DNA of 43,485 nt. Source: Succinivibrio sp. (lineage in GTDB: Bacteria; Pseudomonadota; Gammaproteobacteria; Enterobacterales; Succinivibrionaceae). Of this stretch, positions 2,358 through 32,243 are shown one piece after another. The number at the start of each line of letters is the position of its first letter. The first letter of the stretch is position 1. Under the pieces are notes generated by a model, which saw only the letters and a list, made by a program, of their open reading frames with translations, was not told the DNA's origin and made no database searches. The position numbers and the translations under genes were made by a program. The stretch covers positions 1 to 43,485 of the forward strand of contig JAILLS010000044.1 of NCBI GenBank assembly GCA_024693025.1, given 5' to 3'.

Positions 2358-2403
2358 ATGGTTGAGTTTTCGGCAAAAAATCGCCAAATCAAGAGGTGTA
2401 ATG

Positions 2404-5400
2404 ATGTTTAGAGCAGCAGTTACCACGGATAAGATTAGAAAAGTCATAGAAAAACAAGTAGAAGGTTTTAGTAAACTGCCTTTTGAGATCCCTGGCGGTC
2501 TGATTTTTTTCGAACTCTCCAAACCCTATAAGCTGCTTTACGCCAGCAGATATTTTCTCGAACTTCTGGGGTTTAAAAGTCTGGAGCAGTTAATTTCCGA
2601 AAATGGAGAGCAGCTGAGCGATTTGTTTATCGACACTGAAGATTACACGCAGTTTGTCGCTCCGCTGTTAAGTGCTACTGATACCAAGCTGCTCTGGGTC
2701 CCTCAGGCGGTTACACTGAAAACCAAGGATGGGGAACCTAAATCATTTACCTTTTTCCGTGCACCTTATAAGGTTAGAAAGGATTATAACTGCGGCAAGG
2801 GTTTTTTGGTCGAGCGCAAGAATACCCTGGCCATGAGCAACCCTAATTACGATACACTCACGGGGCTGCTCTCGATGATGGGCTTTTTGGAGGAGCTCCA
2901 TGACAGGCTCTCTGAGCTCTCAGATGATGAATGCTCGCAGTATGCTCTGTGCTATTTTGATCTGCAGGACTTTAAGGTTTTCAACCGGGACTATGGCTTT
3001 GAGGCAGGCTCCAAGCTGCTCACCTTTATCGGCACGGTTGTCAGGAAGGTGTTCAAGGGCTACAGCGTAGCGCGGTTTGGCGATGATCATTTCACGGTGT
3101 TTGGCAAAAACGAGCGTCTGCGTGAGCTCATCGTCAAGGTGAGCGACCTGGTCTATGAATATCAGCCGGATCTTAAGGTGGCGATCAAGGCCGGCGTTTA
3201 CGTGCTCGAATCAAAGCGGGTGCAGCCCAGCGAGGCCTGTGACAATGCCAAGGCCGCCTGCAACAGCATTAAGAATAAATTTGACTGTGTCTATGCTGAA
3301 TACGATGACAAGCTCAAACAGGAGCTCAAGAAAAAGCGCTTCTTTGTTGAGAATCTCGAGGAGGCGATTCAGAAGGGGTTTATTCAGGTTTTCTATCAGC
3401 CGGTCATCAGAATTGTTTCAGGCAAAATCTGCTCGATTGAAGCCCTGTCCAGATGGGTAGATCCGAAAAAGGGCGCTATTTCACCTTTTGAATTTATTCC
3501 GGTCCTTGAACAGTATCGGCTGATCTATAAGCTTGATCTCTATGTGCTCAAGTGTATCTGCAAGTATTATCGCAGCCGGGTCAAGAAAGGGCTGCCTGTC
3601 GTACCGGTATCGCTGAATCTGTCGCGCATAGATTTTGAAATGTGTGATATCGTCTCGGAAGTGGACAAGCTGGTTACCGAATACGGCGTGCCGCGTTATT
3701 ACGTCCATATTGAAGTGACCGAAACGGCCATCAATCAGAATGAAAAGCTGCTGGCTGAGGCTATTGCCGGTTTCAGGAAGCTGGGCTATGCCCTGTGGAT
3801 GGATGATTTTGGTTCTGGTTACTCTTCCCTGAATGTGCTTAAGGACTACGATTTTAACGTCATCAAGTTTGACATGCAGTTTTTAAGAGATCTGAACAAT
3901 GGCAAGCGCTGCGAACGCACGAAGGAGATTCTGCGCTCGGTGGTCTCGATGGTCAAACGGCTGAATATTCAGACTCTGACTGAGGGCGTTGAAACCGAGG
4001 AGCATCTGGAGTTTCTGCGCAGCATAGGCTGCGAAAAGGCGCAGGGCTATCTCTTTTCAAAGCCACTGCCTGCTGAAGAGTTTACCAGACTGAAATTTGA
4101 GTATGAGGAGCAGGAAGAGGCTCAGTATTATGATAATCTGTGCCGGGTTAACCTCGTCAATCAGGTTTCCCTCGACAATCAGGTCGGTTCGGTGGCTGAT
4201 GCTAAAGCCCTGTGTGTGCTTGAAATAGGTCAGGATAAGCAATTTAGGGTTCTGCTTGAGAATGATGCCTTCAAGGAGTTTTTAAAGACCATCGGGCATG
4301 AGAATGTCAGAGCGCTGACCGATTTTCTCAATCATGGCAAGGGACAGCATCATGAGCGTCTGATGCAGCTGTTTGACAACTGCACGGCAGAGCAGCAGAA
4401 CGGCAGTCTGAATTATATTTTCAATGGTGAGTTCTGCAATACCAAGGTGCGCTTTATTGCCGAAAACAAGCTGAATCACCATGTGATGCTGCTGCTGAGA
4501 TGCATGAATATTTCAAGATATTCTGACAAGCCTAAGGGAGATGCTGTAGAGCGCAGCCTGCTGGCTATTCTGCGCGTTTTCGATCTGGTTGGAGTATCTG
4601 ATCTCAGCAAGGAGCAGTATGAAACCATTTATGCCAATTCTCCTCATGAGAGCGTCAATGCCAGTCAGATGAGCTGTCAGAAGGCTTTTAGCAGCTACCG
4701 GGATGAGTTTATCGCCAAATGCGATCATGAGCGCTTTGATCGGTTTATGGATATGAGCACCTTGAAGCGCCGCACTCAGGATAAGAACCGCTTCTTCTCT
4801 TCGGCAGTGTTCAAGACCAGACTGCCAGGCGGCGGCTTCAGGCTGAAGCTGTATATACTCGTGCCGCATGACGTGGAGGGGCAGCGTTTCGTGCTGCACT
4901 GCAGATTTGATCCGGAGCTGCTTGGCAGTCATGTCAAACTCCTGCAGAATTCAGAGCTGATGGTGGATGCACCATACATCCATCATGCCGATCTGTTCAA
5001 CAGTCTTTTGGATCTCACCAAGACTGCAGTGTACTGGAAGGATCTTAATTCACACTTAAAGGGTGCCAATCAGGCCTTTTCCGATTTCTACGGCTTTGAA
5101 TCAGGCAGTGACTTTTTGGGCAAATCAAGCCGTGAGCTTGGGTTCAATGTGGATCTCAAGCATGCCTCAGAGCTTGAACAGCGCGTTATCTCTGAAGGTG
5201 CCATCGTTGAAGAGGACACTCAGCTGCTGGTCAAGGGTGTGGTAAAGCCGGTGCATCTGCATGAAGGTCCGCTGTTCCATGAGGGAAATCTTGCCGGAGT
5301 GATCGGCTACTTTACGGATATGAGCAATGAGCTTGCCGAGGGTGCCTTTACGGATACCGCCAGACGCACTGATGCGCAGACGGGACTGTCTGATTTAGGC

Positions 5401-5799
5401 GGTCTGCAGGAGGCCTTAATCCGGTATGAATATGCCTATGCCAATGAGCGGCGCGATTTTATGATGATGAAATTCATCTGTTTAAACCGTGAGGAGCTCA
5501 GACAGCATAACAATGAGCAGCAGCTGCAGCATCTGGAGCAGGAGCTGTTCAACGCGCTGGTTGACAGCCTGGGCAATAATGGCGTAGTGGCCCGCACCTC
5601 GGCTTTTGCCGGCGTACTGCTCAAGCAGGTAGATGATAAGGAAGATACCGACAGCTTTAAAAAGTCGGTCAAGAGTGCAGTTGCCGCGGTGCAGGATCAG
5701 CAGGGCGCATATGATGTGATCAGGCTGCGCATTGAAGTTTATAACTATAAGGATCATGAAGGATCCCGTAAGATTAGACGCTTGTTTGAAAACGAATAA
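2404..5799 (+). CDS. Multi-PAS protein with degenerate GGDEF and intact EAL: predicted c-di-GMP phosphodiesterase
   Basis: About 1131 residues, cytoplasmic, with no membrane segment. Order: PAS-like (about 25-135), GGDEF (145-300) with the signature changed to FGDDH, so cyclase activity is unlikely, then an EAL domain (325-555) followed by further PAS-like segments. A clear PAS_4-type domain (about 857-974, with AVYWKDLNSHLKGANQAF) and a vestigial second GGDEF (about 987-1131; DAQTGL retained, signature lost) close the protein. The EAL keeps every catalytic position: EALSRW, SLNLSR, HIEVTET, MDDFGSGYSSL, IKFD, TEGVET and the Q of AQGYLF, so hydrolysis of c-di-GMP to pGpG is expected. AGAGGT at 2390-2395 fits ATG 2404 best; ATG 2401 is nearly as good. 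An EAL buried in the middle rather than at the C-terminus is unusual. The 5832 gene follows after 32 bases, probably on the same transcript. Confidence 0.85.
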   Translation: MFRAAVTTDKIRKVIEKQVEGFSKLPFEIPGGLIFFELSKPYKLLYASRYFLELLGFKSLEQLISENGEQLSDLFIDTEDYTQFVAPLLSATDTKLLWVPQAVTLKTKDGEPKSFTFFRAPYKVRKDYNCGKGFLVERKNTLAMSNPNYDTLTGLLSMMGFLEELHDRLSELSDDECSQYALCYFDLQDFKVFNRDYGFEAGSKLLTFIGTVVRKVFKGYSVARFGDDHFTVFGKNERLRELIVKVSDLVYEYQPDLKVAIKAGVYVLESKRVQPSEACDNAKAACNSIKNKFDCVYAEYDDKLKQELKKKRFFVENLEEAIQKGFIQVFYQPVIRIVSGKICSIEALSRWVDPKKGAISPFEFIPVLEQYRLIYKLDLYVLKCICKYYRSRVKKGLPVVPVSLNLSRIDFEMCDIVSEVDKLVTEYGVPRYYVHIEVTETAINQNEKLLAEAIAGFRKLGYALWMDDFGSGYSSLNVLKDYDFNVIKFDMQFLRDLNNGKRCERTKEILRSVVSMVKRLNIQTLTEGVETEEHLEFLRSIGCEKAQGYLFSKPLPAEEFTRLKFEYEEQEEAQYYDNLCRVNLVNQVSLDNQVGSVADAKALCVLEIGQDKQFRVLLENDAFKEFLKTIGHENVRALTDFLNHGKGQHHERLMQLFDNCTAEQQNGSLNYIFNGEFCNTKVRFIAENKLNHHVMLLLRCMNISRYSDKPKGDAVERSLLAILRVFDLVGVSDLSKEQYETIYANSPHESVNASQMSCQKAFSSYRDEFIAKCDHERFDRFMDMSTLKRRTQDKNRFFSSAVFKTRLPGGGFRLKLYILVPHDVEGQRFVLHCRFDPELLGSHVKLLQNSELMVDAPYIHHADLFNSLLDLTKTAVYWKDLNSHLKGANQAFSDFYGFESGSDFLGKSSRELGFNVDLKHASELEQRVISEGAIVEEDTQLLVKGVVKPVHLHEGPLFHEGNLAGVIGYFTDMSNELAEGAFTDTARRTDAQTGLSDLGGLQEALIRYEYAYANERRDFMMMKFICLNREELRQHNNEQQLQHLEQELFNALVDSLGNNGVVARTSAFAGVLLKQVDDKEDTDSFKKSVKSAVAAVQDQQGAYDVIRLRIEVYNYKDHEGSRKIRRLFENE

Positions 5800-5831: not shown

Positions 5832-8800
5832 ATGAAACAGACAAAAGATCAAGACCCTCAGCCTCAGTCTACTGCTGATGCTTATGAGGAGTGCTCGGAT
5901 ATCATCAATGCCGCTATTGAGGAATGTCTGACGGTATCAGCCCCTGATCTGGCGGTACGTCAGCTGATTACTACGATAGGTCAGAAGCTCAGCTGCGGGG
6001 CAGCCTTTATTTATGAACGTGATGAGGAAGGCTTTTTCAAGCTCTCCTACAGCTGGGTGGCTGCTCAGACCGAGCAGGATCATTTCACGCGCAATATGAT
6101 TGATGGCACGATTCTGCATGATTTCTATGATATTCAGCATCCTGAGGCGGTAGTGGCAATCGAGAAGCTTGACCGCATCAGAGGGTGCAGGTTCATGCAT
6201 CAGGCCCTTGAGCAGATGGGGGTGACCTGCTTTGTTTCAGGCAAGCTCTCCTTTATGCAGAAGAGTCTGGGCTACTGCGGCTTTGACAATCCAGATCCGC
6301 GCTTTTATGAGCCGCTCAAAAAGCTCATCAAGCAGTTAGGTTATTTCATCTCCTCTCTCTTGCACAGCAGAAATCTTGTCAACCGTCTCGAGAAGATCGG
6401 GCTTGTCGACAAACTGACCGGCTGCAGCAATCGGCATGGGCTGTATGAGCTTGTCCATAACCTGGATTCATCCTGCAGCGTGGGAGTGCTGTATGGTGAT
6501 GTCAACGATCTTAAACTTATCAACGATGAGCACGGGCATGCCGCAGGAGATCGCCTGCTGATTGCGGTTGCAGACATTCTGACTGAAGTTTTCGGGGTAC
6601 AGCGCGTTTTCAGAATGGGCGGAGATGAGTTTTTGGCTGTCAACGTCAACCTCAGTGAAATTGAATGGGATGCGCGGGTAGGTCTGCTCAAGTCCAGACT
6701 GGCTGCAGACAAGATCTACATTGCGTTAGGCTCCTACTGGATGCCTAATTTCCATATCAGCTTTGAGGAGCTGATCCGCATGGTGGATCAGAAAATGTAC
6801 GAGGACAAGCGCTTCTACTATACCTCGGTAGTGCAGACGGATGTGGATCATTCTGGCTATTCTCCTTCCTATGATCTGATGCTGGAGATCAGGCCGCATA
6901 ACGGTGATTACAAGGTGCTTGAGGATCCGATGGGTCTGCTTGACCGCCTCAGTCTGCCGCAGAATTTCTACGAGTTTATTCAGCAGCGGCAGCAGAACTT
7001 TGTGCATCCAGATGACAAGTCCTCCTATGGCGCCTTCTGGAATCTCAATGATCTGAACATGCGCATCAAGCGGCATAAGGCCGGCAAATCCATCAGTCTT
7101 GAGTACCGCATCAACGAAAACGGCAAGTGGCGCTGGGTTGAGGACGTGCTGGTGCTCTTTGAAAACACCTATGAGCCGGTGATCATCTGTCTGTGCCGTT
7201 CTATCCATCTGCGCAAGCAGCGTGAACTGGCGCGCAATCAGAACATGGCCTACGGTCAGCCTCTGAATATGCCTCTGGATCGCAATGAGCATTTCCTCTT
7301 AAAGGCAGACGAATGGATGACCCGCACCAGTGCCAGTTCAATTGCCGTAGCCGCCGTCGATATCAATTTCTTCAAGCTCTATAACGAGGTTTACGGACGG
7401 CAGGGCGGTAATCTCTTCTTAGAGAAAATAGCTGCTGTCATCAAGGAATATGCGGCAGGGCATCAGGGTCTCGTGGGCTATATGGGAGGAGACAATTTCT
7501 GTTTTATCTTCTCCTTTGACGGCATGAGTCAGGAAATGTTTGAGCAGGAGTTCTGCAAGCACATTGCTCTGCAGCATTTCTCTCCGGGCTTCTCGCCGGT
7601 GATCGGCGTCTGTGTGACCACAGACAAGCATAAGTCGGTTCTTGCCCTGTACGATAAGGCTCTGGTGGCTGTGACCTCGATCAAGGGCAATATGTCTCAG
7701 AAGGTCTGCTTCTATGATGCCAGCCAGTTCCAGCGCATGCGTGATACGCAGATCATGCTGATTGAAGCGCAGAAGGGCTTTAAGGATGGTGAGTTTACCT
7801 TCTATCTGCAGCCTAAGGTTAACCTGCGCACCGGCAAGATTGTGTCTGTGGAAGCCCTGGCTCGCTGGATCCGCAATGACATGGTGATGTCTCCGGGGAT
7901 TTTTGTGGAGGCCATGGAAGATAACGGGTATATTTTCGCGGTGGACAGCTATATCTGGGAACATCTGTGCATCTGGCTCTCTTCGCTGATTGAACGGGGC
8001 ATTGAGCCTCTGCCGTGTTCCGTAAATGTGTCACGCATTGATTTCTTCTTCTGCGATGTGGCCAATGTCTTTATTGAACTGGTCAGTCGCTACAATATCT
8101 CGCCGCATCTCATCGAGGTTGAGATCAGTGAGCGTGCTAATGCCGATGATAATGAGCAGATCCCGGCGGCAGTCAAAAAGCTGCATAACTACGGCTTTAA
8201 GGTCTTGCTGGATAACTTCGGCAACAGTACCTCTTCGCTGAATATGCTTCGCACCATGGATGTGGATATTCTTAAGATCGACAAGAAATATCTCGATGTG
8301 GAGCATACCGGTTATCAGGATTATCTGATGCTCGAGTCCGTGATCAGCATAGCCCACATGCTCGATATGTTTGTGGTGGCTGAAGGGGTAGAAACCGAGC
8401 AGCAGGCTAACAAGCTCAAGGAGCTCAGCTGCAATCTGGGGCAGGGCTATTATTTCTATCGCCCGATGACGCAGGAGCAGTTTGAGCAGGTACTGGTGGA
8501 GCGCGACAAGATCGATCAGATGAACTGGGATCTGCGCAAGGATGTAGGGCAGCTTAATTTCAGGCAGCTGCTTAACGAGCGTATTCTCTCGGATAACAAT
8601 ATCAATTCGATCATGGGTCCGGTGGCGGTCTTTGAAATGGTTAATGATATGGTGGAGCTGGTGCAGATGAATTCTCTGTTTACCGAGCTGACCGGCATTG
8701 AGCCTAATTCTGAGGAGCAGCGCAACTGGATCAAGATTGTGCCTGGTACCACCATGTCACAGGTGGTGCAGTTCTTCACGCTCGCGGATAAACATCAGGA

Positions 8801-8939
8801 TATGGGGACCTTCAAGGAGATTGCCTGTGTCAATGGCAAGGGCGAGTTTGAGAAGCTCTGGTTTAAGGTTTATCCTCTGACCTTCAAGGAATATCGGCAC
8901 TTCTATATGGTGCTGGTGCATCGCAACGCCGAGCGCTGA
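5832..8939 (+). CDS. GAF-GGDEF-PAS-GGDEF-EAL-PAS protein: predicted diguanylate cyclase with doubtful phosphodiesterase
   Basis: A 1035-residue soluble protein. Order: GAF-like sensor (about 40-175), first GGDEF (185-340) with intact RMGGDEF and the metal-site segment YGDVNDLKLIND, PAS_3-like domain (345-465), second GGDEF (about 480-650) with GGDNF, where the metal-binding Glu is Asn, EAL (660-890), and a C-terminal PAS (about 923-1030). No RxxD inhibitory site precedes the first GGDEF. The EAL keeps EALARW, SVNVSR, EVEISER, ILKID, AEGVETE and GQGYYF, but the normal DDFGTGYSSL is DNFGNSTSSL, losing the second metal-binding Asp and altering loop 6. Hydrolysis is therefore doubtful. I infer a cyclase whose EAL may bind c-di-GMP as a regulator. 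It lies 32 bases after its neighbour, suggesting a two-gene operon of opposing activities. A strong hairpin terminator follows. Confidence 0.85.
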   Translation: MKQTKDQDPQPQSTADAYEECSDIINAAIEECLTVSAPDLAVRQLITTIGQKLSCGAAFIYERDEEGFFKLSYSWVAAQTEQDHFTRNMIDGTILHDFYDIQHPEAVVAIEKLDRIRGCRFMHQALEQMGVTCFVSGKLSFMQKSLGYCGFDNPDPRFYEPLKKLIKQLGYFISSLLHSRNLVNRLEKIGLVDKLTGCSNRHGLYELVHNLDSSCSVGVLYGDVNDLKLINDEHGHAAGDRLLIAVADILTEVFGVQRVFRMGGDEFLAVNVNLSEIEWDARVGLLKSRLAADKIYIALGSYWMPNFHISFEELIRMVDQKMYEDKRFYYTSVVQTDVDHSGYSPSYDLMLEIRPHNGDYKVLEDPMGLLDRLSLPQNFYEFIQQRQQNFVHPDDKSSYGAFWNLNDLNMRIKRHKAGKSISLEYRINENGKWRWVEDVLVLFENTYEPVIICLCRSIHLRKQRELARNQNMAYGQPLNMPLDRNEHFLLKADEWMTRTSASSIAVAAVDINFFKLYNEVYGRQGGNLFLEKIAAVIKEYAAGHQGLVGYMGGDNFCFIFSFDGMSQEMFEQEFCKHIALQHFSPGFSPVIGVCVTTDKHKSVLALYDKALVAVTSIKGNMSQKVCFYDASQFQRMRDTQIMLIEAQKGFKDGEFTFYLQPKVNLRTGKIVSVEALARWIRNDMVMSPGIFVEAMEDNGYIFAVDSYIWEHLCIWLSSLIERGIEPLPCSVNVSRIDFFFCDVANVFIELVSRYNISPHLIEVEISERANADDNEQIPAAVKKLHNYGFKVLLDNFGNSTSSLNMLRTMDVDILKIDKKYLDVEHTGYQDYLMLESVISIAHMLDMFVVAEGVETEQQANKLKELSCNLGQGYYFYRPMTQEQFEQVLVERDKIDQMNWDLRKDVGQLNFRQLLNERILSDNNINSIMGPVAVFEMVNDMVELVQMNSLFTELTGIEPNSEEQRNWIKIVPGTTMSQVVQFFTLADKHQDMGTFKEIACVNGKGEFEKLWFKVYPLTFKEYRHFYMVLVHRNAER

Positions 8940-9023: not shown

Positions 9024-11969
9024 TTAAGCGCTCTTGCGCTGAGAGTCAAGGAATCTCTCAAAATCACTGAGGAGCATTGGCTTAGCATAGTAGAAGCCCT
9101 GAGCCAGATCGCAGCCAAGCTTGAGCAGCAGTTCTTCCTGACTCTTCTGCTCAACTCCCTGACAGACCACCTGCATGCCAAGGCTGTGGCCAAAGTTGAT
9201 GAGATTCCTGAGCACCTGCTCAGAACGGGCGGATTTCTCAGCTTCATGGAGGATCACCCGGTTAAGCTTTAAGGTGCGGATCTTACTGTTCTGCATCATG
9301 ATCATGGAAGCATAACCTGACCACAGATCGCTGACGGCAAGGTTGAACTTGAGATCCTGCAGTCCTTTGAAAATCTGCTTGGCATCGGTAATGGCCTGTT
9401 CGTCATTCGGTGGAGGCAGGGCATTATTTTCCACGATTTCAATCTGTACACTGTTATCCGGCAGATTGTAGTTATCTGCAATCAGCTTCATGCGGCGCAG
9501 ATAGGCTTTCTCCTTCAAATGGGTGCCTGACTGATTGACAGAAACAGGCAGAATTGGTAGCCCTGCATCAAGACGCTTGCGCAGGAAGGCGCAGACTGCA
9601 TTTAGGACATAGTAATCGAGGTTATAGACCGAGCTGTTGCTCTCAAAGAGCTGAATAAAGTCTGCCGGCATCACAAAGCCAAGTTCAGGGCTGTCCCAGC
9701 GTACCAGGGCCTCTGCACCAATGGTCTGATGAGTTTTCAGATTATAGACAGGCTGCATCCAGATCTCAAACTCGCCCTTCTCAAGAGCCGAGTTCATGGT
9801 ATCCATCATCTTCAGCTGCTTGAGCAGCACTTCTTTACGATCATCATTGAAGACTTCAAGACTCTGATTATGTTCATTGGCATCATTCAGTGCAGCCACC
9901 GCGTTATCCATGACAGCGCGCAGCACATATTTCTCTTCAGAAGGGATTGGACAGATGCCGGTGACATAGTCAAGATGCACAAACTGATTACCAAATTTAA
10001 CCTGTGAGTTGGTCTGGGTCAGATTACTGACCACCTCTTCATAGCTCTTGTCTTTTGGCAGCGAGCAGAGGAAGAAGAAATGCGAATAGGCAGAAGCAAC
10101 GGCAGTCTCTAAGATCCAAGGATTTTCCTTACGGATTTTCTGCAGCAGATCGTGCAGACCATGATTGAGGATGCGCTGGGTGTAGTTCTCGCGCATTAAA
10201 GTCAGCTGCTTGACGGCCACGGCCATAATAAAGAGTCTGGAGGACTTGCGTGAAACCTTAAGCTTCTCGATGGTCTTGGGCGCATAGCGGTTAAACCAGT
10301 TGAGGTTGTACAGCTGAGTTTCATGATCGGTATACATGAGCTTCCATTTCTTCTTAACCAGCATAGCCCGTCTGATAAAGTAAAGCAGCATCAGCAGCAG
10401 TACAAAGGAGCAGCCGATCAGGGTCAGCAGCTTGCCTAGCTGTTTATTCTCAAGGAACATCCGCTTGAAGATGCTGCTGTTGACCTGATTCTTGCTAAAA
10501 TGCCTGGTCTCAAAAATGGATTCGATTTCTTTACGATCTGCATGCACAATAGCCTTGTTTAACAGAGACATGAGCATCGGATCGTTATTGGATGCCAGAG
10601 CGATTGCCAGAGGCAGACTGTAGGCTATCTCACCTGTAGAGCGTAGGGTTTCATAACCTTTATGGGTTAGAAATTCGATGGCAACAGGCTCTTTTAAGTA
10701 GGTCACATCAGCTTCGCCGTCAACTACTGCCTGCAGACATTCATCGATGCTGCTGTAATAGGCAAAGTCACCTTTAAAGTCCTTGTTCTTCTTAAGCTGC
10801 ATGGACTGATAGGTATTGTTGAGCGCAGCGATGGTCGGGAACTCTGGCAGCTCCTCATTGGCTCTTTTTACTCCGACGTAATGCACCTCGGCATACGGGA
10901 AGGAAATATTGACGTCGTTAATTCTGGCCCAGTTGAAGTCAGCAAAGAAGTCAGCCATCAGGTTGATATTGCCTTTGGCGACCTCGCGTAAACCCTCGCC
11001 ATAGGAATCGATATGCTGATATTCAAATTCCACCCCGAGCTCATCGGCAAGATATTTCATAATATCGCGGATGATGCCTAGCTGCGTACGGTCCACCTCA
11101 TAGGAGAAAGGCCGCTCAGAGGGGGAGGCGACCACCGAGATAATCGGATTGCTTCTTAAGTACTCGCGTTCTGCTTCAGACAGGACTAGCGGAGCTCTTT
11201 CAAAGCGATTCTGTCTGAGACTTTCAATATAGTGCGGATTATCGTTGAGCAGCTGAATCTCGGCATTTTCAAGCTCGTGCAGCAGCTGTTCATTACCATG
11301 TCTGACTCCGTAGAAGGTGTCAAGGGTGCCAATGGTAGTAGGGAAAGGCAGCTCTTTTAAGTCAAGCTTGTTGGAAACAATAATGCCGTCGATTTTATGC
11401 TTGCTATAGTCTGTTAGGAGCTGCTCATCCTTGTAATAAGGAATCAGACTGTAGGTCTGATTATAGACAAAACCACGCTCGGACAGAGCCTTGACTATGG
11501 CCTCACGCTGCACCGCCGTGTCTTTATAGCCTAAATACCAGAGCGGTTCATTGTTATCTTTCTTAAATGGTTTTTCATACTTGGAGACTCGCACTGAGAA
11601 TCTTGAGACTGGACGTGAGCTAAAGACAACATCCTTGTTGCTTTGACTTTTAACGACATTGAGGAGCAGATCAATATCATTATTGTTCAGCATCTTAAGA
11701 CAGCGCTCAGGTGAGCAGGGGGTAAAACTGATTCTGTAGTTGGCATAGTTAGATACCATCTGCATGTAATCTGAGATCACTCCGGTAATATCACCGTTGC
11801 GCTCTGCATATACCTCGCCCGGAATGGGAATGAAACCTGCGTAGATGGTTTTACGATCAGAATAGTTAAAGTTATAGCTAAGATCAGAAACATCCGCTGT
11901 AGCCGTATAAGAGGTGTACAGCAGCAGTGAAATCAAACTTAATTTTAGGCAAGATATGATCTGTCTCAT
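9024..11969 (-). CDS. Tandem periplasmic binding domains plus membrane-linked degenerate GGDEF-EAL: predicted c-di-GMP receptor
   Basis: About 981 residues with a signal peptide (MRQIISCLKLSLISLLLYT...). Two SBP_bac_3-like (PBP type 2) domains follow at about 45-260 and 275-495, then one transmembrane helix (about 511-535) and a cytoplasmic GGDEF (556-706) and EAL (730-976). The two-SBP layout resembles BvgS-type sensors. The GGDEF signature is absent (ASAYSHFFF in its place). The EAL keeps EALVRW and SVNQSG, but DDFGTGYSSL is SDLWSGYASM, IKID is LKLN, and AEGVE is CQGVE, so catalysis should be lost. I infer a transmembrane receptor coupling a periplasmic ligand (amino acid or similar) to c-di-GMP, in the manner of LapD. 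ATG 11969 has GGAG about 9 bases upstream; a GTG at 11999 does not. It follows bcsZ in the same direction after 207 bases. Confidence 0.85.
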   Translation of the reverse strand: MRQIISCLKLSLISLLLYTSYTATADVSDLSYNFNYSDRKTIYAGFIPIPGEVYAERNGDITGVISDYMQMVSNYANYRISFTPCSPERCLKMLNNNDIDLLLNVVKSQSNKDVVFSSRPVSRFSVRVSKYEKPFKKDNNEPLWYLGYKDTAVQREAIVKALSERGFVYNQTYSLIPYYKDEQLLTDYSKHKIDGIIVSNKLDLKELPFPTTIGTLDTFYGVRHGNEQLLHELENAEIQLLNDNPHYIESLRQNRFERAPLVLSEAEREYLRSNPIISVVASPSERPFSYEVDRTQLGIIRDIMKYLADELGVEFEYQHIDSYGEGLREVAKGNINLMADFFADFNWARINDVNISFPYAEVHYVGVKRANEELPEFPTIAALNNTYQSMQLKKNKDFKGDFAYYSSIDECLQAVVDGEADVTYLKEPVAIEFLTHKGYETLRSTGEIAYSLPLAIALASNNDPMLMSLLNKAIVHADRKEIESIFETRHFSKNQVNSSIFKRMFLENKQLGKLLTLIGCSFVLLLMLLYFIRRAMLVKKKWKLMYTDHETQLYNLNWFNRYAPKTIEKLKVSRKSSRLFIMAVAVKQLTLMRENYTQRILNHGLHDLLQKIRKENPWILETAVASAYSHFFFLCSLPKDKSYEEVVSNLTQTNSQVKFGNQFVHLDYVTGICPIPSEEKYVLRAVMDNAVAALNDANEHNQSLEVFNDDRKEVLLKQLKMMDTMNSALEKGEFEIWMQPVYNLKTHQTIGAEALVRWDSPELGFVMPADFIQLFESNSSVYNLDYYVLNAVCAFLRKRLDAGLPILPVSVNQSGTHLKEKAYLRRMKLIADNYNLPDNSVQIEIVENNALPPPNDEQAITDAKQIFKGLQDLKFNLAVSDLWSGYASMIMMQNSKIRTLKLNRVILHEAEKSARSEQVLRNLINFGHSLGMQVVCQGVEQKSQEELLLKLGCDLAQGFYYAKPMLLSDFERFLDSQRKSA

Positions 11970-12004
11970 ATCTAACAACTCCAAAATCCAAAAACTCACT
12001 AAAA

Positions 12005-12176: not shown

Positions 12177-13190
12177 CTAGAAATGTTTGGCGGCAAGATA
12201 GCATAACAGCTTGAGACTTGCGTTGTAATAATCATCCTTGGCGGTGATCACAGGTTCAGTGAGGGGTACCGTACCCATGACGAGATCGCGTACGGTTTTA
12301 AGCCCTGAGGTCAGATGGTATTTGGCCGTTTCCCCGGTAGCGACATTGACCCAGGCGGGAGTTTCTTTTTCAGGAAAGCGCCCGAACCAGTCCTTCCAGG
12401 GCTTTAAATGCGGATTGTGCGGATCCATCCAGTACAGATATACGGGCACGCGGATGGCATCATAGCTTGAACGGGCAGGCCATTCTACGGCCGGTATCAT
12501 TTTGCCCTGCGCATCCAGATTGAGCCAGTCAGGCGGCAGGATCACCTTCAGATCCATCTTCTCCACATTGGCCACGACCTCATAGCAGTCGTTGGAGAGA
12601 TCCTGCCAGCGTTTCAGATGGGTATGCTGAGCGATGGCCTGCATGGCCGGGAAGATGAAATAGGACGGATTTAACACCACTGAGCTGTTATAGTAAAAAC
12701 CGTTCTCGCCAGGCAGGAGAACCTGCTTGCCGGCAAACTTGGTGATGACGGTACGGATGAGACCGGTGGCAATCTGCTCGGCCTGTCTTGCGTACTGGAT
12801 GTTAGCCCATTTCTTATGAGCTTTAAGTAATGCCCAGGCGATGAAGAGATCGCCGTCGCTGGCATTGTTCTTATCCGCTGTAGGATCCTGTTCCTGTGGG
12901 CGGTAGGCCCAGTAGAACAGATTGTTCTTCGGATTCTTGATGTGAGTGTTGGTCCAGTCTAGGATCAGATCAAAGGTGGCCTTGTCATCATAGGCAAGAG
13001 CAAACATCAGACCATAGCCCTGACTTTCAGAATGGGTCATATTGTGGTTGTAGGTGTCGACCACAGCGCCTTCCTTGGTGACAAAACGGGATTTGTAGTC
13101 ATCCCAGGCGTTGGCAGATACCGCACTTGATAGCAGCAGGCCTGCCATACACAGCACGCTCTTGAGGCTGGCTTTGATTGATCTGTCCAT
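12177..13190 (-). CDS. bcsZ: Periplasmic endo-1,4-beta-glucanase BcsZ (glycoside hydrolase family 8)
   Basis: A 337-residue cellulase with a signal peptide (hydrophobic core CMAGLLLSSAVSANA). It should cut nascent or misplaced cellulose in the periplasm, which is needed for normal cellulose output. GH8 features: the catalytic acid Glu in THSESQGYGL, the GH8 signature around ASDGDLFIAWALL, and the conserved RSSYDAIRVPVYLYW near the C-terminal half. Length is close to other BcsZ proteins (about 350-370). GAGGAG lies just upstream of ATG 13190. It is the last bcs gene, starting 26 bases after the bcsD stop. An inverted repeat follows the stop. Confidence 0.95.
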   Translation of the reverse strand: MDRSIKASLKSVLCMAGLLLSSAVSANAWDDYKSRFVTKEGAVVDTYNHNMTHSESQGYGLMFALAYDDKATFDLILDWTNTHIKNPKNNLFYWAYRPQEQDPTADKNNASDGDLFIAWALLKAHKKWANIQYARQAEQIATGLIRTVITKFAGKQVLLPGENGFYYNSSVVLNPSYFIFPAMQAIAQHTHLKRWQDLSNDCYEVVANVEKMDLKVILPPDWLNLDAQGKMIPAVEWPARSSYDAIRVPVYLYWMDPHNPHLKPWKDWFGRFPEKETPAWVNVATGETAKYHLTSGLKTVRDLVMGTVPLTEPVITAKDDYYNASLKLLCYLAAKHF

Positions 13191-13216: not shown

Positions 13217-13690
13217 TTAGGTTGCGCTGAAGTTTTTGAATCTGAAGGTTAGCTCATGCGGTGGAGTAATCTGTTCAAGACGGCAGCTCAGCTTCGCTGA
13301 GGCACCGCTCTGCTGAATCCAGCCGGTATAAAGTCCGCTTAACACAGAGCTGATGGCTTTTAAAAACATCTTATCTTGAGGATTCTGCGGATCAAGCGGC
13401 GGATAATGATGATGGATGAGCAGCGAATCCTGACAGTCTTCGATCTCAGCCACCCCCCATTTGAACAGATCGAGCCTTGAATTGATGCTGCTCTGCAGAT
13501 CTGAGAGCAGCTCCTCTTCAGGCAGCGGGTAGCGGAGCGCGACCCGATAGCCGGCTTCACAGAGAAAATCCAGCGCTACCTGCTGTTCGGCATTGGCCGC
13601 CATCATTCTGGTGAACACGAGCACCAGATCAAACCACCCGGCAGGCTGCTGCAGGTTTTCCAGATAATTGGCATATGAACTGTCTACCAT
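13217..13690 (-). CDS. bcsD: Cellulose synthase subunit BcsD
   Basis: A 157-residue periplasmic protein of the BcsD (AxCesD) family. In Komagataeibacter this protein forms octameric rings that help export and align glucan chains; here that role is inferred. Visible family pattern: FLCEAGYRVALRYPLPEEE, then INSRLDLFKWGVAEIED, LLIHHHYPP, and the C-terminal SGLYTGWIQQSGASAKLSCR. Length matches the family (about 155). There is no signal peptide, which is normal for BcsD. AGGTAG precedes ATG 13690, 12 bases after the bcsC stop. Its presence marks this as a type I operon and suggests ordered or crystalline cellulose. Confidence 0.9.
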   Translation of the reverse strand: MVDSSYANYLENLQQPAGWFDLVLVFTRMMAANAEQQVALDFLCEAGYRVALRYPLPEEELLSDLQSSINSRLDLFKWGVAEIEDCQDSLLIHHHYPPLDPQNPQDKMFLKAISSVLSGLYTGWIQQSGASAKLSCRLEQITPPHELTFRFKNFSAT

Positions 13691-13702: not shown

Positions 13703-16700
13703 CTATAACACGCCCATCAGATACTTGAAGTAGAGCATCTCGCTGTATTCCTTGTAGTCGCCGAAGGTATTGTAGTTGAAGGAACCACCGACCTTGAAGG
13801 CATCGTTGACATCGTAGTCAAGCTTGACGTTGACAGAACCGCTGATGCCGCTCTTGTCATTATTGTCATAACGAGTTGCCGAGACCAGTCCGTAATTGTA
13901 GAGTTCCTCCAAGGTCTCCTGCCACAGCTTATCCTTAGGGAAGTACTCGCCGCCCTTAGCCGAGAAGGACTGATAACCGATGGAGGCGCTGGCCTCTAAA
14001 TTGAGATTCTCCCATTGTTTTGAGTAATTGACCGGAATGGCGATGGAGTAGTAGTCCTGAGGACTGAAGTACCCGCCATAGCCCATGGAGAAGCGGTTCT
14101 GGTTCTTCTGGAAGTTCATGTAGTTGATATCAAGGCCGACCGTGAGCTTCTGGGTCTGCTGATTGATGACCCTCGCATAAGCTCCGGTGTTAAAGCCGAA
14201 CATATGGTTGTCATCCACATTCTCGCCTGTGTAGTAATAGTAGGCAGGTCCTCCATAGACGCCGAAATAGCCATTGTCATAGGCCAGCTGAATGCTGCCG
14301 CCGTTTTTGGTGACCGCACCCCAGAATCTGCCGGAGTAATTATCCTTAAGACCATAATAGGACAGCACACTGTCGCGTACGGCGCGGCGCTCCACGTTTA
14401 CACGCAGCTCGGTGTTCTTGCCAATTCTTGGTCGGAAATTCCAGCCGCCCACAAAGGTGGTTCCTCTTTTACCGATTGGCGTAACTCCGATATCAGCTTT
14501 ATAAGAGCGTCCGGAGAGAGTCAGCGAGCCTTCTATACCATCCTCTCTCACGCGATGCGCACCACCCAGGTTTTTGTTCGAGGTGCCTGTGGCAGCCATA
14601 ACTTTACGCATGGTGTCAGTTTTTGTAATACCGTAAACATCTTTCAACTTAGCTTTTAATCTGCTTACATCAGATGTGGAGGTTAGATTATAGTCACCGG
14701 CATTCAAATAGTTACCTGTAACAAGAGCGTTAATTGTGCCTGAATCAATACCGTATTCAGATTCAAGGGCAGCCACGATGGAAGCCCAATTATCTACTTT
14801 AGTTACAACAGTCTTGCCGTCTACAACTTCTGTTGTGGTGGTATAACGGTTTTCGTATCTATATTTGATATCCCCCACCATGGCATTAACTGCCGTGACA
14901 ACAGAGGTGGCACCTACCGCCAGAGCATTGGTACCCATCTTCATATTGGAGTCAGCCGTAGGCGTACCGGCATCCATGAGCGTCGGTGTCACGGTGGCGG
15001 TCAGACGGTGTTCTCCTGCCAGCGGGAAGGACATGCTTATTGGGGCATTGAAACCGTTGACTTCAGACAGACCAGCCTCACCCTTTTTCTGGTTGGCATT
15101 CAGCTGAGCCTTCACATGGATGGAGGTGATCTCATAGAGCTCCTTGAGCATGCGGTTGACTTCATTTAAAGTCTCGTCATTATGAGGACCGTTATCAGCC
15201 TGGGCAAATACCGGGGAGGCATAGGTCTGCCCGTCCGGCATTTTCTCCCAAGGCATCACCGATGGATTGACGCGGTTAGGCGCAACCGTGCTGTGCTTGT
15301 TGCGGAACGGGTTGTTCGGTGAATAGTTGCCGGCATGCGAGAGGGTCGGATCGGCAGTCGGAGAGAGCGTACCCTCAAGCATCTGCTTGCTCATTCTCAG
15401 ATAATCAATGGCATCGCTGTATTTACGGTTCTGCCTGGCCACCTGTGCCTTAAGGAGCAGAGTCTGCGGATCGTTGCCCACGATATTCTGCGCTAAAGCC
15501 TCGGCCTTTTCATAATGCTTGTTGGCAAGTGCCGCATAGGCTGCACCCTGCAGAGCCGCCTGATTGTTCGGCTCAGTATAGAGGACACGATCATAGATCT
15601 TCTCCTCTTCTCTAAAGTCGTTATTGTCATGATAGAGTCTGGCCATGGCCATCATCAGATCAGGATCGTTAGGATTCTGCAGCATCTGCGAGTAGAGCAG
15701 ATCGTAGGCATCGGCATAGCGTCCGTATTTACGCAGATTGTCCGCTTCCTGAATATATTTGCCCTGATTGATGCGGTTTAAGTCCGCGCGGTTTGAATTG
15801 GCCACCAGCACATGATGCTCGGTGAGGTAACGGGCCTTGTCATAATTGCCGGTTGCATTGAAGACGGAAATCACATCGGCAAAATCACCCACGGTCGCAT
15901 TAGGCTTGACGCCGCGGCTGACTGCTCTGTCCGCAAGCTGTACGGCAGTCTGGCGATCTCCTGCCTGCAGATAGAGGTAGGCAAGATGACCTAAATCAGA
16001 GGTTTCAAGAGACTGACTGCGGCTGTTGATTGTGCGCAGCGTATTGAGCGCAGCCGGCAGCTGACCCTGACGGACATACTGTTCTGCCTTGTCCATATCA
16101 GAGCGCAGCTTGATATTGGCGCGCAGCTGTCTGACCTGATTATTGTTATAGCTTGAGCTGATGCGCTGACTGGTAGCCAGTGCTCCGCTGGCATCGCCCC
16201 ATACGCTCTGCAGGGTGGCAGCGGCATATAGTGATTCATTGGAGGCGCCCTGACGGGTCAGGTAGGCCAGTTCACGCATTGCTGACTGCTTGTCGCCATT
16301 GCGATAGAGCAGAGCGGCTAAATCATAGCGGATCCAGGCACTGTTAGGATGCTTCTGCAGCCCCTGATAGAGAATATCCAGAGCTCTGGCGGTATTACCG
16401 CTGCTGGCAGCCTGTGCCGCGCTCTTGCGGATGGCAATGGACGGGTCGACATACGCAGGTCCCTGACGGGAGGCAATAGTCTTCTGCAGCGTCGGTGAGA
16501 AGGTAGTCAGCAGGGCCTTGGCCTCCTCAGGCTTCTTGTCATCGAGCAGGGTATAGTAGAGATTCTCCTGGGCTCCCTGGTTTGACGGATGGTCAGCGAG
16601 GATCTGACGGAGCAGCTCTTCTGCTCTGGTATACTGTCTGGTCTTGCGGTAGAGATTGGCCTTAAACAGCATTATGTCGGTCGGATCCTCCATATTCATG

Positions 16701-18130
16701 GAGAGCATTTCATCAGTCAGGGTCTGCGCCAGATTGAGATCGCCATCAGCCTCGGCCTGATGAGCTGAGGCCAGCAGAGCATCATAGTGCAGCTTCTGTT
16801 TTTTAGGCGAATCTATTTCTGCTGCCTTGGAGAGGTATTCAGATGCTTCCTTATAGTGCTGCTGACGCATATACAGATAGCCTAAACCTTCGAGGGCATT
16901 GACGTTATTGGGATCCCTTGCCAGGATCTCCTGGAAGCTCTCGCGGGCAGACTGCTCGTTTTTGTTCTTGACCTCCTCATAGGCCTTGGAGGTCATGGTG
17001 CCGAGCATATTATTGCTGTAGTGCCCTATGACATCGACATCCTGAGGGTGGCGTCTGGCGTAGTCCACATAATATTTTTCATCGGCAGGCGTCGGGGTGA
17101 GCCAGAGCAGAGCTTCACGCAGGGCCGAGTCAGAATCAGGGGAGGAGTCAGCAAAATACTGCAGCACCTCAATACCCTGGCGTCTGGTTTCATCACGATA
17201 GCTGAGCAGCTTGCCGTAGGTGATCTTGGCCGAAGTATCATTAGGATTGGCTCTGATGTACTGGGCAATGCCGTTGACCGCTTCAGGGTAACGGGCAGGG
17301 TCTCCTGAGAGGGTCAGATAGTATTCTGAGACTAGGGCACGCGGAGGCAGTCCGTTTTTAAAGAGCTGCTGGTAGTTGGAGACAGCACCTGGGATATTGC
17401 CGGAGGCCGCCATTTCACGGGCGCGCTTTAACTGATCCTTGGAGAGATTGCTGAGATCTGCCATATTGTTGAGATCCTGCAGTCTGGGATCATGCGGTGC
17501 AGCTTCAGCCAGACGTTTTTTCCAGCGCTCAGCTTCACTGACTTCAGCGTTTTCCATGGACCACAGCGAGAGCAGATATAAAGCGTCGGCATTGTCAGGA
17601 TCGGCCAGAAGGACACGATTTAAGCTCTGCCTTGCAAGGTTGAGCTGCTGTTTGTCGTGCCAGAACTGGGCCTGCTTGAAGAGTGCTGTCAGCATGGTGC
17701 CCGCAGTCAGCGGAGCATCCCCGCTGCTTGCCTGTCTGTGTGCATTTCCCTGTGAGGTGGCATTTGGTTTGGGTACCGGTGCAGGAGCATGAATTTGCGT
17801 TGTGCTCTGCTGAGCCTGACTCTGAGCTGTTTGTGCCGGGACCTGAGCAGCGTTGCTGACCTGCTGCGCTGCATTATTCTGGACCACCTGCGTCTGTGGA
17901 GCTGGCTGTGCAGCTGGCTGGGCAGTCTGAGTAGCGGTGGTCTGGGCAGCAGCTGGCTGAGCGGCAGAGGCATCCTCCTGATGGAGGGTGGTACCGCGCA
18001 GCTTGCTGCGATCATCGGTCATTGCCGCCCGATCGCGCTGATAATCATTGTCATCCTGGGCCAAAAGCTGTGATGAAGCGCAGACTGCACAGAGGCAGAT
18101 GGCCAGTTTAGTCAGGGTCAAGGTTTTCAT
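13703..18130 (-). CDS. bcsC: Cellulose export protein BcsC: TPR scaffold and outer-membrane barrel
   Basis: About 1475 residues, longer than E. coli BcsC (about 1157). A signal peptide (MKTLTLTKLAICLC...) is followed by a Gln/Ala/Pro-rich linker (about 30-135), a long series of TPR repeats (about 150-930) and a C-terminal BcsC barrel (about 990-1475) that forms the outer-membrane exit pore for cellulose. Barrel-family segments include GEAGLSEVNGFNAPISMSFP, ADIGVTPIG and RRAVRDSVLSYYG. An AT-rich stretch (about 14550-14960) encodes about 120-140 residues between early barrel strands that I do not recognise in other BcsC proteins. The start chosen is ATG 18130, with GAGG about 12 bases upstream. 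An ATG at 18148 overlaps the bcsB stop and adds six residues. It sits between bcsB and bcsD. Confidence 0.93.
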   Translation of the reverse strand: MKTLTLTKLAICLCAVCASSQLLAQDDNDYQRDRAAMTDDRSKLRGTTLHQEDASAAQPAAAQTTATQTAQPAAQPAPQTQVVQNNAAQQVSNAAQVPAQTAQSQAQQSTTQIHAPAPVPKPNATSQGNAHRQASSGDAPLTAGTMLTALFKQAQFWHDKQQLNLARQSLNRVLLADPDNADALYLLSLWSMENAEVSEAERWKKRLAEAAPHDPRLQDLNNMADLSNLSKDQLKRAREMAASGNIPGAVSNYQQLFKNGLPPRALVSEYYLTLSGDPARYPEAVNGIAQYIRANPNDTSAKITYGKLLSYRDETRRQGIEVLQYFADSSPDSDSALREALLWLTPTPADEKYYVDYARRHPQDVDVIGHYSNNMLGTMTSKAYEEVKNKNEQSARESFQEILARDPNNVNALEGLGYLYMRQQHYKEASEYLSKAAEIDSPKKQKLHYDALLASAHQAEADGDLNLAQTLTDEMLSMNMEDPTDIMLFKANLYRKTRQYTRAEELLRQILADHPSNQGAQENLYYTLLDDKKPEEAKALLTTFSPTLQKTIASRQGPAYVDPSIAIRKSAAQAASSGNTARALDILYQGLQKHPNSAWIRYDLAALLYRNGDKQSAMRELAYLTRQGASNESLYAAATLQSVWGDASGALATSQRISSSYNNNQVRQLRANIKLRSDMDKAEQYVRQGQLPAALNTLRTINSRSQSLETSDLGHLAYLYLQAGDRQTAVQLADRAVSRGVKPNATVGDFADVISVFNATGNYDKARYLTEHHVLVANSNRADLNRINQGKYIQEADNLRKYGRYADAYDLLYSQMLQNPNDPDLMMAMARLYHDNNDFREEEKIYDRVLYTEPNNQAALQGAAYAALANKHYEKAEALAQNIVGNDPQTLLLKAQVARQNRKYSDAIDYLRMSKQMLEGTLSPTADPTLSHAGNYSPNNPFRNKHSTVAPNRVNPSVMPWEKMPDGQTYASPVFAQADNGPHNDETLNEVNRMLKELYEITSIHVKAQLNANQKKGEAGLSEVNGFNAPISMSFPLAGEHRLTATVTPTLMDAGTPTADSNMKMGTNALAVGATSVVTAVNAMVGDIKYRYENRYTTTTEVVDGKTVVTKVDNWASIVAALESEYGIDSGTINALVTGNYLNAGDYNLTSTSDVSRLKAKLKDVYGITKTDTMRKVMAATGTSNKNLGGAHRVREDGIEGSLTLSGRSYKADIGVTPIGKRGTTFVGGWNFRPRIGKNTELRVNVERRAVRDSVLSYYGLKDNYSGRFWGAVTKNGGSIQLAYDNGYFGVYGGPAYYYYTGENVDDNHMFGFNTGAYARVINQQTQKLTVGLDINYMNFQKNQNRFSMGYGGYFSPQDYYSIAIPVNYSKQWENLNLEASASIGYQSFSAKGGEYFPKDKLWQETLEELYNYGLVSATRYDNNDKSGISGSVNVKLDYDVNDAFKVGGSFNYNTFGDYKEYSEMLYFKYLMGVL

Positions 18131-18137
18131 TACTAAC

Positions 18138-20633: not shown

Positions 20634-20637
20634 CTTC

Positions 20638-22806: not shown

Positions 22807-23610
22807 TTATCTTTTCTGATTAGGATTACGCTGCATCACAATCGTATCCTGTTTCACATCAAAGCCCAGGATGGTGGCAAGCTTGCGGGCAATAATCTCG
22901 ATATCAAAGCCGGCTGACGAGTTGCGGTTGAAGTCACTGATGGCCTGCTGCTGTGCGGCAGCCTCGATCACGCTGGTATCGGTATGGATCATACCCAGCA
23001 GCCGATCTCCGAAATTGGAGGCGGCAAATTCCTGAATCTCGCGGTTGATCTTGATGCGGTTGTCCACCTCGTTGAGAACCACAAAATAGCCGCTGCCGTT
23101 GTTGAACGGTCCCTCGAGCAGCTCTTCATTTTCGATCTGCGAGAAGAGGGCGATGGAGGCAGCATCTGCAAGCAGCGGGATCACGCTGACATCAGTCACG
23201 TCAGCCATGGCCTTCAGAGCCTGTGAGAAGCCCGGCGGGAAATCAGCAATGACGAGCACATCAGGATTGCAGAAAAGGGCGGCCTGATAGTCCTTAAAAT
23301 AATTAGGCTGCATCAGAAGGCTGTCAAGCTTTAAGCGGTCTTCCTGAGTGGAATGGCCAAACGGGAGCATATACAGATTTTTGCCGACATTTAAAGCCGC
23401 TGTAGTCCAGTCACCATTGCTCTCAATTTTTTCGATAAAGCCGCCTTCCTCAGAGAGCGGAATGCCAAAATACAGGCGCAGAGCATTCTGAGGGTCAAAA
23501 TCAATGGTAATTACCTTGGTACCTGCACGGGCAAAGGTGTAGGCAAGGTTAGAGGTTAAGGTGGTTTTGCCAACTCCTCCCTTAGGAGAACAAACGCTAA
23601 TTACTGGCAT
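22807..23610 (-). CDS. bcsQ: Cellulose biosynthesis ATPase BcsQ (ParA/MinD-like)
   Basis: A 267-residue SIMIBI-class ATPase. In E. coli, BcsQ supports assembly and polar positioning of the cellulose secretion complex together with BcsR and BcsE. The deviant Walker A KGGVGKTTLTSN is at residues 10-21, the Walker A' Asp lies in TIDFDPQN (about 37), and the Walker B region is VLVIADFPPG. The ATG at 23610 overlaps the end of the preceding gene by 10 bases, so the two are translationally coupled. No bcsE, bcsF or bcsG homologue is visible in the window. Confidence 0.93.
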   Translation of the reverse strand: MPVISVCSPKGGVGKTTLTSNLAYTFARAGTKVITIDFDPQNALRLYFGIPLSEEGGFIEKIESNGDWTTAALNVGKNLYMLPFGHSTQEDRLKLDSLLMQPNYFKDYQAALFCNPDVLVIADFPPGFSQALKAMADVTDVSVIPLLADAASIALFSQIENEELLEGPFNNGSGYFVVLNEVDNRIKINREIQEFAASNFGDRLLGMIHTDTSVIEAAAQQQAISDFNRNSSAGFDIEIIARKLATILGFDVKQDTIVMQRNPNQKR

Positions 23611-31984: not shown

Positions 31985-32243
31985 CTAAAAATTATGCTCA
32001 AGTTAAAAATTTTAAAAAAACATTTATAAAATTACCTATGGTTTAATATATATTTATATACTATCAATAATTTACGTGTGATATGTTGGAAATTCTCTCA
32101 GGATCATAGCTGCTTTGTGCCTGACTGTGGGCTGTCAGCACTGGGGAGAGTACAGAGGGAGCGCGGGACTGCCTAGCGGCAGGCAGATTAACATGCTAAA
32201 ATCAGCGCTTAGAATTTAGATGATTAAGAAAGAGGATAAGGTC
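31985..32243. other. Intergenic region upstream of the DotH-like gene
   Basis: No gene. Positions 31985-32085 are extremely AT-rich. From about 32098 the composition turns GC-rich, with a hairpin-forming sequence at 32117-32141 (GTGC-c-TGAC pairing with GTCAGCAC around an 8-base loop) and CTGCC-TAGC-GGCAG near 32169-32182. No clear promoter for the plus-strand pair is visible. An ATG at 32220 is in frame with the next gene but lacks a ribosome binding site. Confidence 0.4.

Follow-up and report, generated by a model that had tools for sequence, protein, structure and literature searches.

We identified, on contig JAILLS010000044.1 of a Succinivibrio sp. genome (GCA_024693025.1), a receptor-like protein whose gene lies beside the cellulose (bcs) operon; all 43,485 nucleotides of this stretch are referred to here as the window. 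The protein, which we call REC, is encoded at 9024-11969 on the minus strand and comprises 981 amino acids (aa). Judged from its sequence, REC may be a ligand-sensing phosphodiesterase that has turned into a catalytically dead regulator of local cyclic di-GMP (c-di-GMP) at the cellulose locus, working from the outside in and probably together with the neighbouring protein GE2, a reading to which we give a little less than an even chance. Under this proposal, closure of the periplasmic flytrap (SBP_bac_3) domains on a ligand would be passed through a single helix to a GGDEF-EAL unit. That unit would not cleave c-di-GMP; it would bind the nucleotide and/or GE2 and would raise or lower how much c-di-GMP is supplied locally to BcsA through its PilZ domain.

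The active sites of REC carry this proposal. REC has no GGDEF signature, and of the seven metal ligands of an EAL domain it lacks three (D880S, D903N and E937Q). As read in a preliminary description of the locus, SDLW replaces DDFG (D880S, F882L), Asn903 takes the place of the Asp of KxD, and Gln937 that of the Glu of EGVE; the four original residues (D880, F882, D903, E937) are invariant in the other 31 of 31 rows of our alignment A2. The seven ligand positions combine the sets given for PA3825 and RocR (PMC5301497, PMC7911125). For the PA3825 EAL domain, Glu39, Asn98, Asp130 and Asp160 are named as ligands of metal M1, and Asp161 and Asp183 as ligands of M2 with Mg, Glu217 making contact in the Ca form (PMC5301497); for RocR, the metal residues are given as E175, N233, E265, D295, D296 and E352 and the substrate residues as Q161 and R179 (PMC7911125). 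Mapped by spacing, PA3825 160/161/183/217 correspond to REC 880/881/903/937 at a constant offset of 720, and RocR 295/296/352 to REC 880/881/937 at a constant offset of 585. Serine 880 (codon 9330-9332, minus strand, as are the next two) thus replaces the first Asp of DDFG (RocR D295, PA3825 D160), Asn903 (9261-9263) the KxD Asp (PA3825 D183, an M2 ligand), and Gln937 (9159-9161) the EGVE Glu (RocR E352, PA3825 E217). On the other hand, E753, N812, E844, D881, K901, Q739, R757 and Q957 are kept in REC and uniform in the other 31 rows. Among them, Q739 and R757 match the substrate-binding Q161 and R179 of RocR and, with Q957, are also kept in the REC orthologue of a second species (G008:C61). 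Phosphodiesterase inactivity is predicted in PMC12900916 for every EAL domain that does not conserve the EGVE catalytic base; the paper prints this base as 'glutamine' in its methods and as 'glutamate' in its results, and we take glutamate as meant. The base is Gln937 in REC and Lys in the G008 orthologue. By these published residue criteria the REC EAL domain is predicted to be inactive, and an intact site for either a cyclase (no GGDEF signature) or a phosphodiesterase (D880, D903 and E937 gone) is missing from the protein.

Around these degenerate sites, the protein itself is complete. The frame holds no internal stop and begins with an ATG at 11969, which is favoured over an upstream in-frame GTG at 11999 because a GGAG motif lies 9 bases 5' of it. 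Pfam recognised two SBP_bac_3 stretches (59.9 bits) and an EAL domain at residues 725-964 (179.8 bits, E 7e-53), with the GGDEF domain remaining below the cut-off (12.5 vs 23.8 bits). An N-terminal helix (residues 2-23), under the threshold of our membrane-helix scan, is presumably a signal peptide. It is followed on the minus strand by flytrap 1 (residues ~26-265; 11175-11894; boundaries approximate, the fold being taken from the model and structure matches), flytrap 2 (~266-505, with the SBP_bac_3 match at 277-485; 10455-11174), the single strong hydrophobic helix of the scan (514-532; 10374-10430), the pseudo-GGDEF domain (~546-715; 9825-10334) and the EAL domain (9078-9797). This order—periplasmic SBP_bac_3, membrane helix, GGDEF/EAL output fold—is that of an SBP_bac_3 one-component c-di-GMP sensor of the RmcA and CdgH type. 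Pfam matched neither a HAMP domain after the membrane helix, which in the model belongs to one long helix (509-546) entering the GGDEF domain, nor a histidine kinase domain anywhere in REC. The AlphaFold2 model, computed from the window protein and 31 relatives from named contigs, reached a mean predicted local distance difference test score of 86.8 for the whole protein and a predicted template modelling score of 0.47: the two flytraps and the GGDEF and EAL domains are each confidently folded in it, their mutual placement being unreliable. Foldseek matched the model in the PDB to the periplasmic tandem flytraps of BvgS and EvgS and to the GGDEF-EAL units of PA0575 (RmcA; the top match), MorA and LapD; entry 5gzs, which we take to be CdgH, was also among the structural matches. 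A sequence search with the periplasmic part returned BvgS first (E 2.8e-11, mainly over the flytrap 2 region), EvgS at E 0.005 and, weakly, 7ejg (E 0.026), presumably RmcA. Two SBP_bac_3-like domains, one membrane helix and the BvgS-like nature of the tandem sensors, all proposed beforehand, are borne out by Pfam, the helix scan, the sequence search and the fold matches.

The relatives of REC tell which of its losses are its own. When 40 relatives were searched for the window protein, full-length homologues came up on contigs C15, C3 and C83 of its own genome (30% identity), in G006, G007, G014 and G018 (29-31%) and on G008:C61 (39%), and a profile of the nine-row alignment A1 recovered from 56 family genomes the same nine proteins, that is, A1's own rows, all at more than 1300 bits. 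Scanning named genomes added Selenomonadaceae, Clostridia and other proteins among the best 80 of 593 loci; ~100 profile positions of flytrap 1 are missing from L082, L088a, L088b and L090, and the matches of L089 and L091 do not start before profile position 88-91. A class-wide survey of 369 genomes (E 1e-95), a weak test in which the best two candidates per genome at most were scored, found the own genome only, and a single-protein scan of genome contigs gave no match. Neither GGDEF nor GGEEF occurs anywhere in the 26 REC-family proteins examined, and all eight EAL residues checked (E753, N812, E844, D880, D881, K901, D903, E937) are kept in 23 of them, the exceptions being the window protein, its orthologue G008:C61 and a long-branched paralogue, G008:C54. 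The catalytically dead pair of the preliminary description therefore holds in that REC lacks a GGDEF signature and has an EAL domain predicted to be inactive, but the former trait is family-wide (26/26), and only losses in the EAL domain, seen in 3/26, are particular to a few members.

The tree joins the window protein to G008:C61 with 100/100 support, inside a set of 13 rows that is likewise supported at 100/100 and of which the other 11 keep the EAL residues; the inner forks of this set lie partly below the starred support level. By path, the rows nearest to the window protein are G008:C61, L082 (Selenomonas ruminantium), C15, L081 and L084 (Selenomonadaceae, Selenomonadales). The orthologue is an intact frame of 998 aa with both SBP_bac_3 stretches, 39% identical to REC overall and 48% in the EAL domain. 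It has lost the catalytic base (Lys) and the active-site Lys (Asn) and keeps both Asp residues of DD as well as that of KxD; beyond the base, the two proteins have thus lost different residues, and the base itself may have been lost in a single event or separately in each of them. Branch rates were compared on a fixed topology of the 13 rows. No other EAL end branch is as long as that of the window protein (0.77), whose ratio of EAL to flytrap 2 branch length is 1.42 vs 0.32-1.12 in the other 12 rows. The end branches of flytrap 2 and GGDEF are not long in REC (0.54 and 0.51, the latter being the shortest of 13). A fast-evolving EAL of this kind fits a loss of catalytic constraint in the window lineage. 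Besides, REC-family proteins of the genus (G000 and G006-group rows) cluster with the Selenomonadaceae (Bacillota) L081-L084, which suggests transfer between phyla, and a contig of a Veillonellaceae metagenome-assembled genome (L088:3037-12522) carries a run of several REC-family frames, of which two are long and two are partial and overlap.

A second line of evidence is the company that REC keeps. GE2 (5832-8939, plus strand; 1035 aa) lies tail-to-tail with REC in both the window and G008, at a spacing of 67-84 bp. In a survey of the 56 family genomes, which scored at most 14 candidates in each, near-full-length GE2 was found in these two alone, adjoining REC each time, so that the pair stands together beside bcs in both species having it. 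In both, GE2 has an intact RMGGDEF (at residue 263 in the window protein) and a second GGDEF altered to GGDNF, and it probably makes c-di-GMP. Its EAL domain retains 7/8 checked residues in the window, with the second Asp of DD replaced by Asn in an altered loop (DNFGNST), and is of uncertain activity. The G008 counterpart is clearly broken: EAL has become DAL, Asn has changed to Thr, the metal Glu to Lys, DD to HN, Lys to Met and QG to SG. A GE2 relative on G008:C88 reads KAL for EAL and keeps DDFG, KxD, EGVE and QG. Across the GE2 group (window 5832-8939, L042:8938-12030 of G008 and L047:1039-2757 of G008:C88) the decay of the EAL domain is thus graded. Next to GE2, the window encodes a further dual-domain protein, GE1 (2362-5799, plus strand; 1145 aa), with GDDHF in place of GGDEF and intact EAL residues, such that one phosphodiesterase-like (GE1), one cyclase-like (GE2) and one degenerate protein (REC) stand in a row. 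GE1 is not present beside the REC-GE2 pair in G008, where none of the five open reading frames of at least 200 aa beyond GE2 matches the window. In total, the own genome (2.13 Mb) gave nine EAL matches.

Upstream of REC and on the same strand lie a bcsQ-like gene (22807-23610; TIGR03371 at 146.1 bits vs a cut-off of 157.85), bcsA (20638-22797; with the PilZ-type motifs RxxxR and DxSxxG), bcsB (18138-20714; frame from a TTG, start not fixed), bcsC (13703-18148), bcsD (13217-13690) and bcsZ (GH8; 12177-13190). The place beside bcs genes, pointed out early on, is shared with G008 despite the 39% protein identity; there the order is bcsC-bcsD-bcsZ, a MatE gene (454 aa), REC and then GE2. In the window, 207 AT-rich bp separate bcsZ from REC. 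Promoter-like and terminator-like sites were near chance (8 observed vs 5.5 expected and 4 vs 3.4, respectively), and there were no Rfam matches in the window. Adjoining the bcsQ-like gene, a 463-aa protein without Pfam or NCBIfam family (23601-24992, minus strand) is possibly an unrecognised accessory Bcs protein. Farther beyond the operon, the plus strand encodes a 249-aa protein with a weak match to T4BSS_DotH_IcmK (32220-32969; 27.2 bits vs a cut-off of 25) and a 519-aa protein that combines an intact GGDEF domain (144.7 bits) with some eight hydrophobic segments (39584-41143).

How far does the arrangement extend? BcsZ was matched (E 1e-10 or better) in 20 of the 56 family genomes, strongly in 18, and BcsA matches (E 1e-30) likewise in 20/56. 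We examined the flanks of the other 16 strong bcsZ loci, mostly on the downstream side, and REC was in none of the flank covered, so that we do not favour a general link of this architecture with bcs. The association is narrow: it holds at 2/18 strong bcsZ loci, or at 2/12 if loci flanked by no more than 5 kb are set aside, and the two belong to a single genus. The contigs of G003, G005, G007, G012, G017 and G058 end at most 3.4 kb past bcsZ, and in G002, G006, G013, G014, G016 and G018 there is no EAL gene downstream of bcsZ within the 5.5-14 kb of flank. A tblastn search (E 1e-8) with BcsA, BcsB, BcsC, BcsD, BcsZ and two further operon proteins against the 126 loci L039-L164, many with short flanks, found only L042. 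In G004, G010, G011 and G015, a GE1-like GGDEF-EAL protein of 1460-1473 aa is encoded near bcsZ, with two genes in between (L193, L196, L197, L199; 28-29% identity to GE1 over ~890-920 residues). Seven genomes (G002, G005, G007, G012, G013, G014, G016) of the genus harbour a second BcsA-like synthase with 41-47% identity to the BcsA of the window and a longer frame (~850-930 aa). Six neighbours at four loci of REC relatives, sought as clues to the ligand, comprised five housekeeping-type families (FtsH-like, pterin-binding, phosphoglucosamine-type mutase, radical SAM with BATS, AsnA) and one protein without family.

Several observations speak against our favoured reading. The losses in the REC EAL domain are not significantly concentrated on the metal ligands (3/7 vs 5/24 of the other invariant columns; Fisher p 0.33), and with 8/31 invariant columns lost and 23/31 kept, a general relaxation of the domain would fit too, which would argue against a finely tuned conversion. 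The EAL domain of the G008 orthologue is not accelerated (ratio 0.39). REC is only a candidate for co-transcription with bcs, given the AT-rich gap and the MatE gene inserted in G008, and the link to bcs rests on two related species and may be one inherited arrangement. Finally, since seven of its eight checked EAL residues are kept, the window GE2 could itself be a phosphodiesterase. This last point also bears on a more specific version of the proposal, in which a nutrient-sensing phosphodiesterase, having become the non-hydrolysing receptor REC, would join with GE2, a dedicated cyclase with an EAL domain likewise being switched off, to deliver c-di-GMP to cellulose synthase from a complex gated by the ligand; c-di-GMP produced at BcsA would then be read rather than destroyed. 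We regard this version as unlikely, the more so because the window GE2 has lost only 1/8 EAL residues.

The partnership with GE2 would also suit a pure protein scaffold, in which the REC EAL domain no longer binds c-di-GMP and REC serves as a ligand-gated tether contacting GE2 only. The three lost metal ligands, the fast evolution of the window EAL domain, the pairing of REC with GE2 in either species and the precedent of DdpA and BdcA are all in its favour, but the retention of Q739, R757, Q957 and most of the invariant EAL columns speaks against it; of the alternatives this one fares best, though we would still not expect it to be right.

Somewhat less probable is an inside-out receptor, where the degenerate EAL domain would bind c-di-GMP and alter the periplasmic part, which in turn would affect ligand binding or a Bcs component of the periplasm. 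Signalling in the manner of LapD had been put forward in the preliminary description. It draws on the degeneracy of both domains, on the substrate contacts kept and on the GGDEF-EAL unit of V. cholerae LapD bound to c-di-GMP among the structural matches (TMt 0.68). Yet REC has no HAMP domain and no LapD-type periplasmic domain (on that side, Pfam gave nothing but SBP_bac_3 and a relative of it below threshold), REC reaches 38.5 bits with the NCBIfam LapD model vs a cut-off of 1020, and LapG (PF06035) gave no match at E 0.001 in the own genome, an absence that is not certain at 88% assembly completeness. On these grounds we rejected REC as a member of the LapD family, a failure that lowers the case for REC being a LapD more than that for REC binding c-di-GMP as LapD does. 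Besides, the EAL residues are intact in relatives that have these sensors, suggesting outside-in control in the family. It is these relatives, joining the same sensors to intact EAL domains, and the flytrap sensors themselves that lead us to favour outside-in signalling, by a periplasmic ligand, for REC as well.

That REC might still be a weak phosphodiesterase under flytrap control appears improbable: E753, N812, E844, D881 and K901 are kept, and some EAL domains with deviating residues are described as functional (class II, PMC12900916), but the catalytic base is absent, which predicts inactivity by the same source, and the first Asp of DDFG and that of KxD are lost too. Equally improbable is a decaying sensor phosphodiesterase heading for loss with no role in controlling cellulose, which would agree with the accelerated EAL domain and the narrow distribution and is at odds with the intact 981-aa frame, with flytrap 2 and GGDEF end branches that are not long for the family and with an orthologue kept at the same place at 48% EAL identity.

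If REC is indeed a catalytically dead regulator with an outside-in signal, cellulose secretion would come under the direct control of an external small molecule. Either way, REC and its relatives provide a natural before-and-after series, with the same sensor and membrane layout and an EAL domain that is intact elsewhere and degenerate at the cellulose locus. Such a series allows testing how a sensor phosphodiesterase becomes a receptor, and whether that receptor works with a neighbouring cyclase.

Among known systems, RmcA (PA0575) of Pseudomonas aeruginosa resembles REC in having an SBP_bac_3 periplasmic sensor on a GGDEF-EAL unit. RmcA has one flytrap plus PAS domains. It is listed as an L-arginine-sensing phosphodiesterase (PMC8846402), whereas REC combines two flytraps with a degenerate EAL domain. 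Tandem flytraps with a c-di-GMP output are described for CdgH of Vibrio cholerae, a diguanylate cyclase in whose description (PMC5431781) an EAL domain is not mentioned. BvgS and EvgS share the tandem flytraps in fold and sequence and differ in their kinase output. LapD, in which GGDEF and EAL are both degenerate as in REC, has a periplasmic fold, a HAMP domain and a LapG partner that were not found for REC. The sensor of PdeK differs from that of REC. The position of REC beside bcs is not unusual in itself, because pdeK of Escherichia coli adjoins bcsC where the bcs operon ends; PdeK is reported to have a degenerate GGDEF like REC and, in contrast, a canonical EAL domain (PMC5635695). The same paper argues for local c-di-GMP signalling to cellulose synthase in the case of E. 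coli DgcC (PMC5635695). As to a partnership with GE2, the pairs DdpA-BdcA and LapD-GcbC are examples of a cyclase served by a dead dual-domain protein (PMC12805831, PMC6050961). DdpA of Bordetella bronchiseptica is, like REC, a membrane dual-domain protein without catalytic residues, and is required by the cyclase BdcA; it differs in its BaeS-like sensor, and its description gives no tie to cellulose (PMC12805831). Among the titles and abstract openings listed by our literature search there was no publication on tandem flytraps, a dead GGDEF-EAL unit and bcs together, which is not proof of absence. The preliminary description, which knew of no such system, was therefore probably right about the whole; the parts have precedents in RmcA, CdgH, BvgS and the pdeK gene beside bcsC, and it is their combination in REC that appears to be new.

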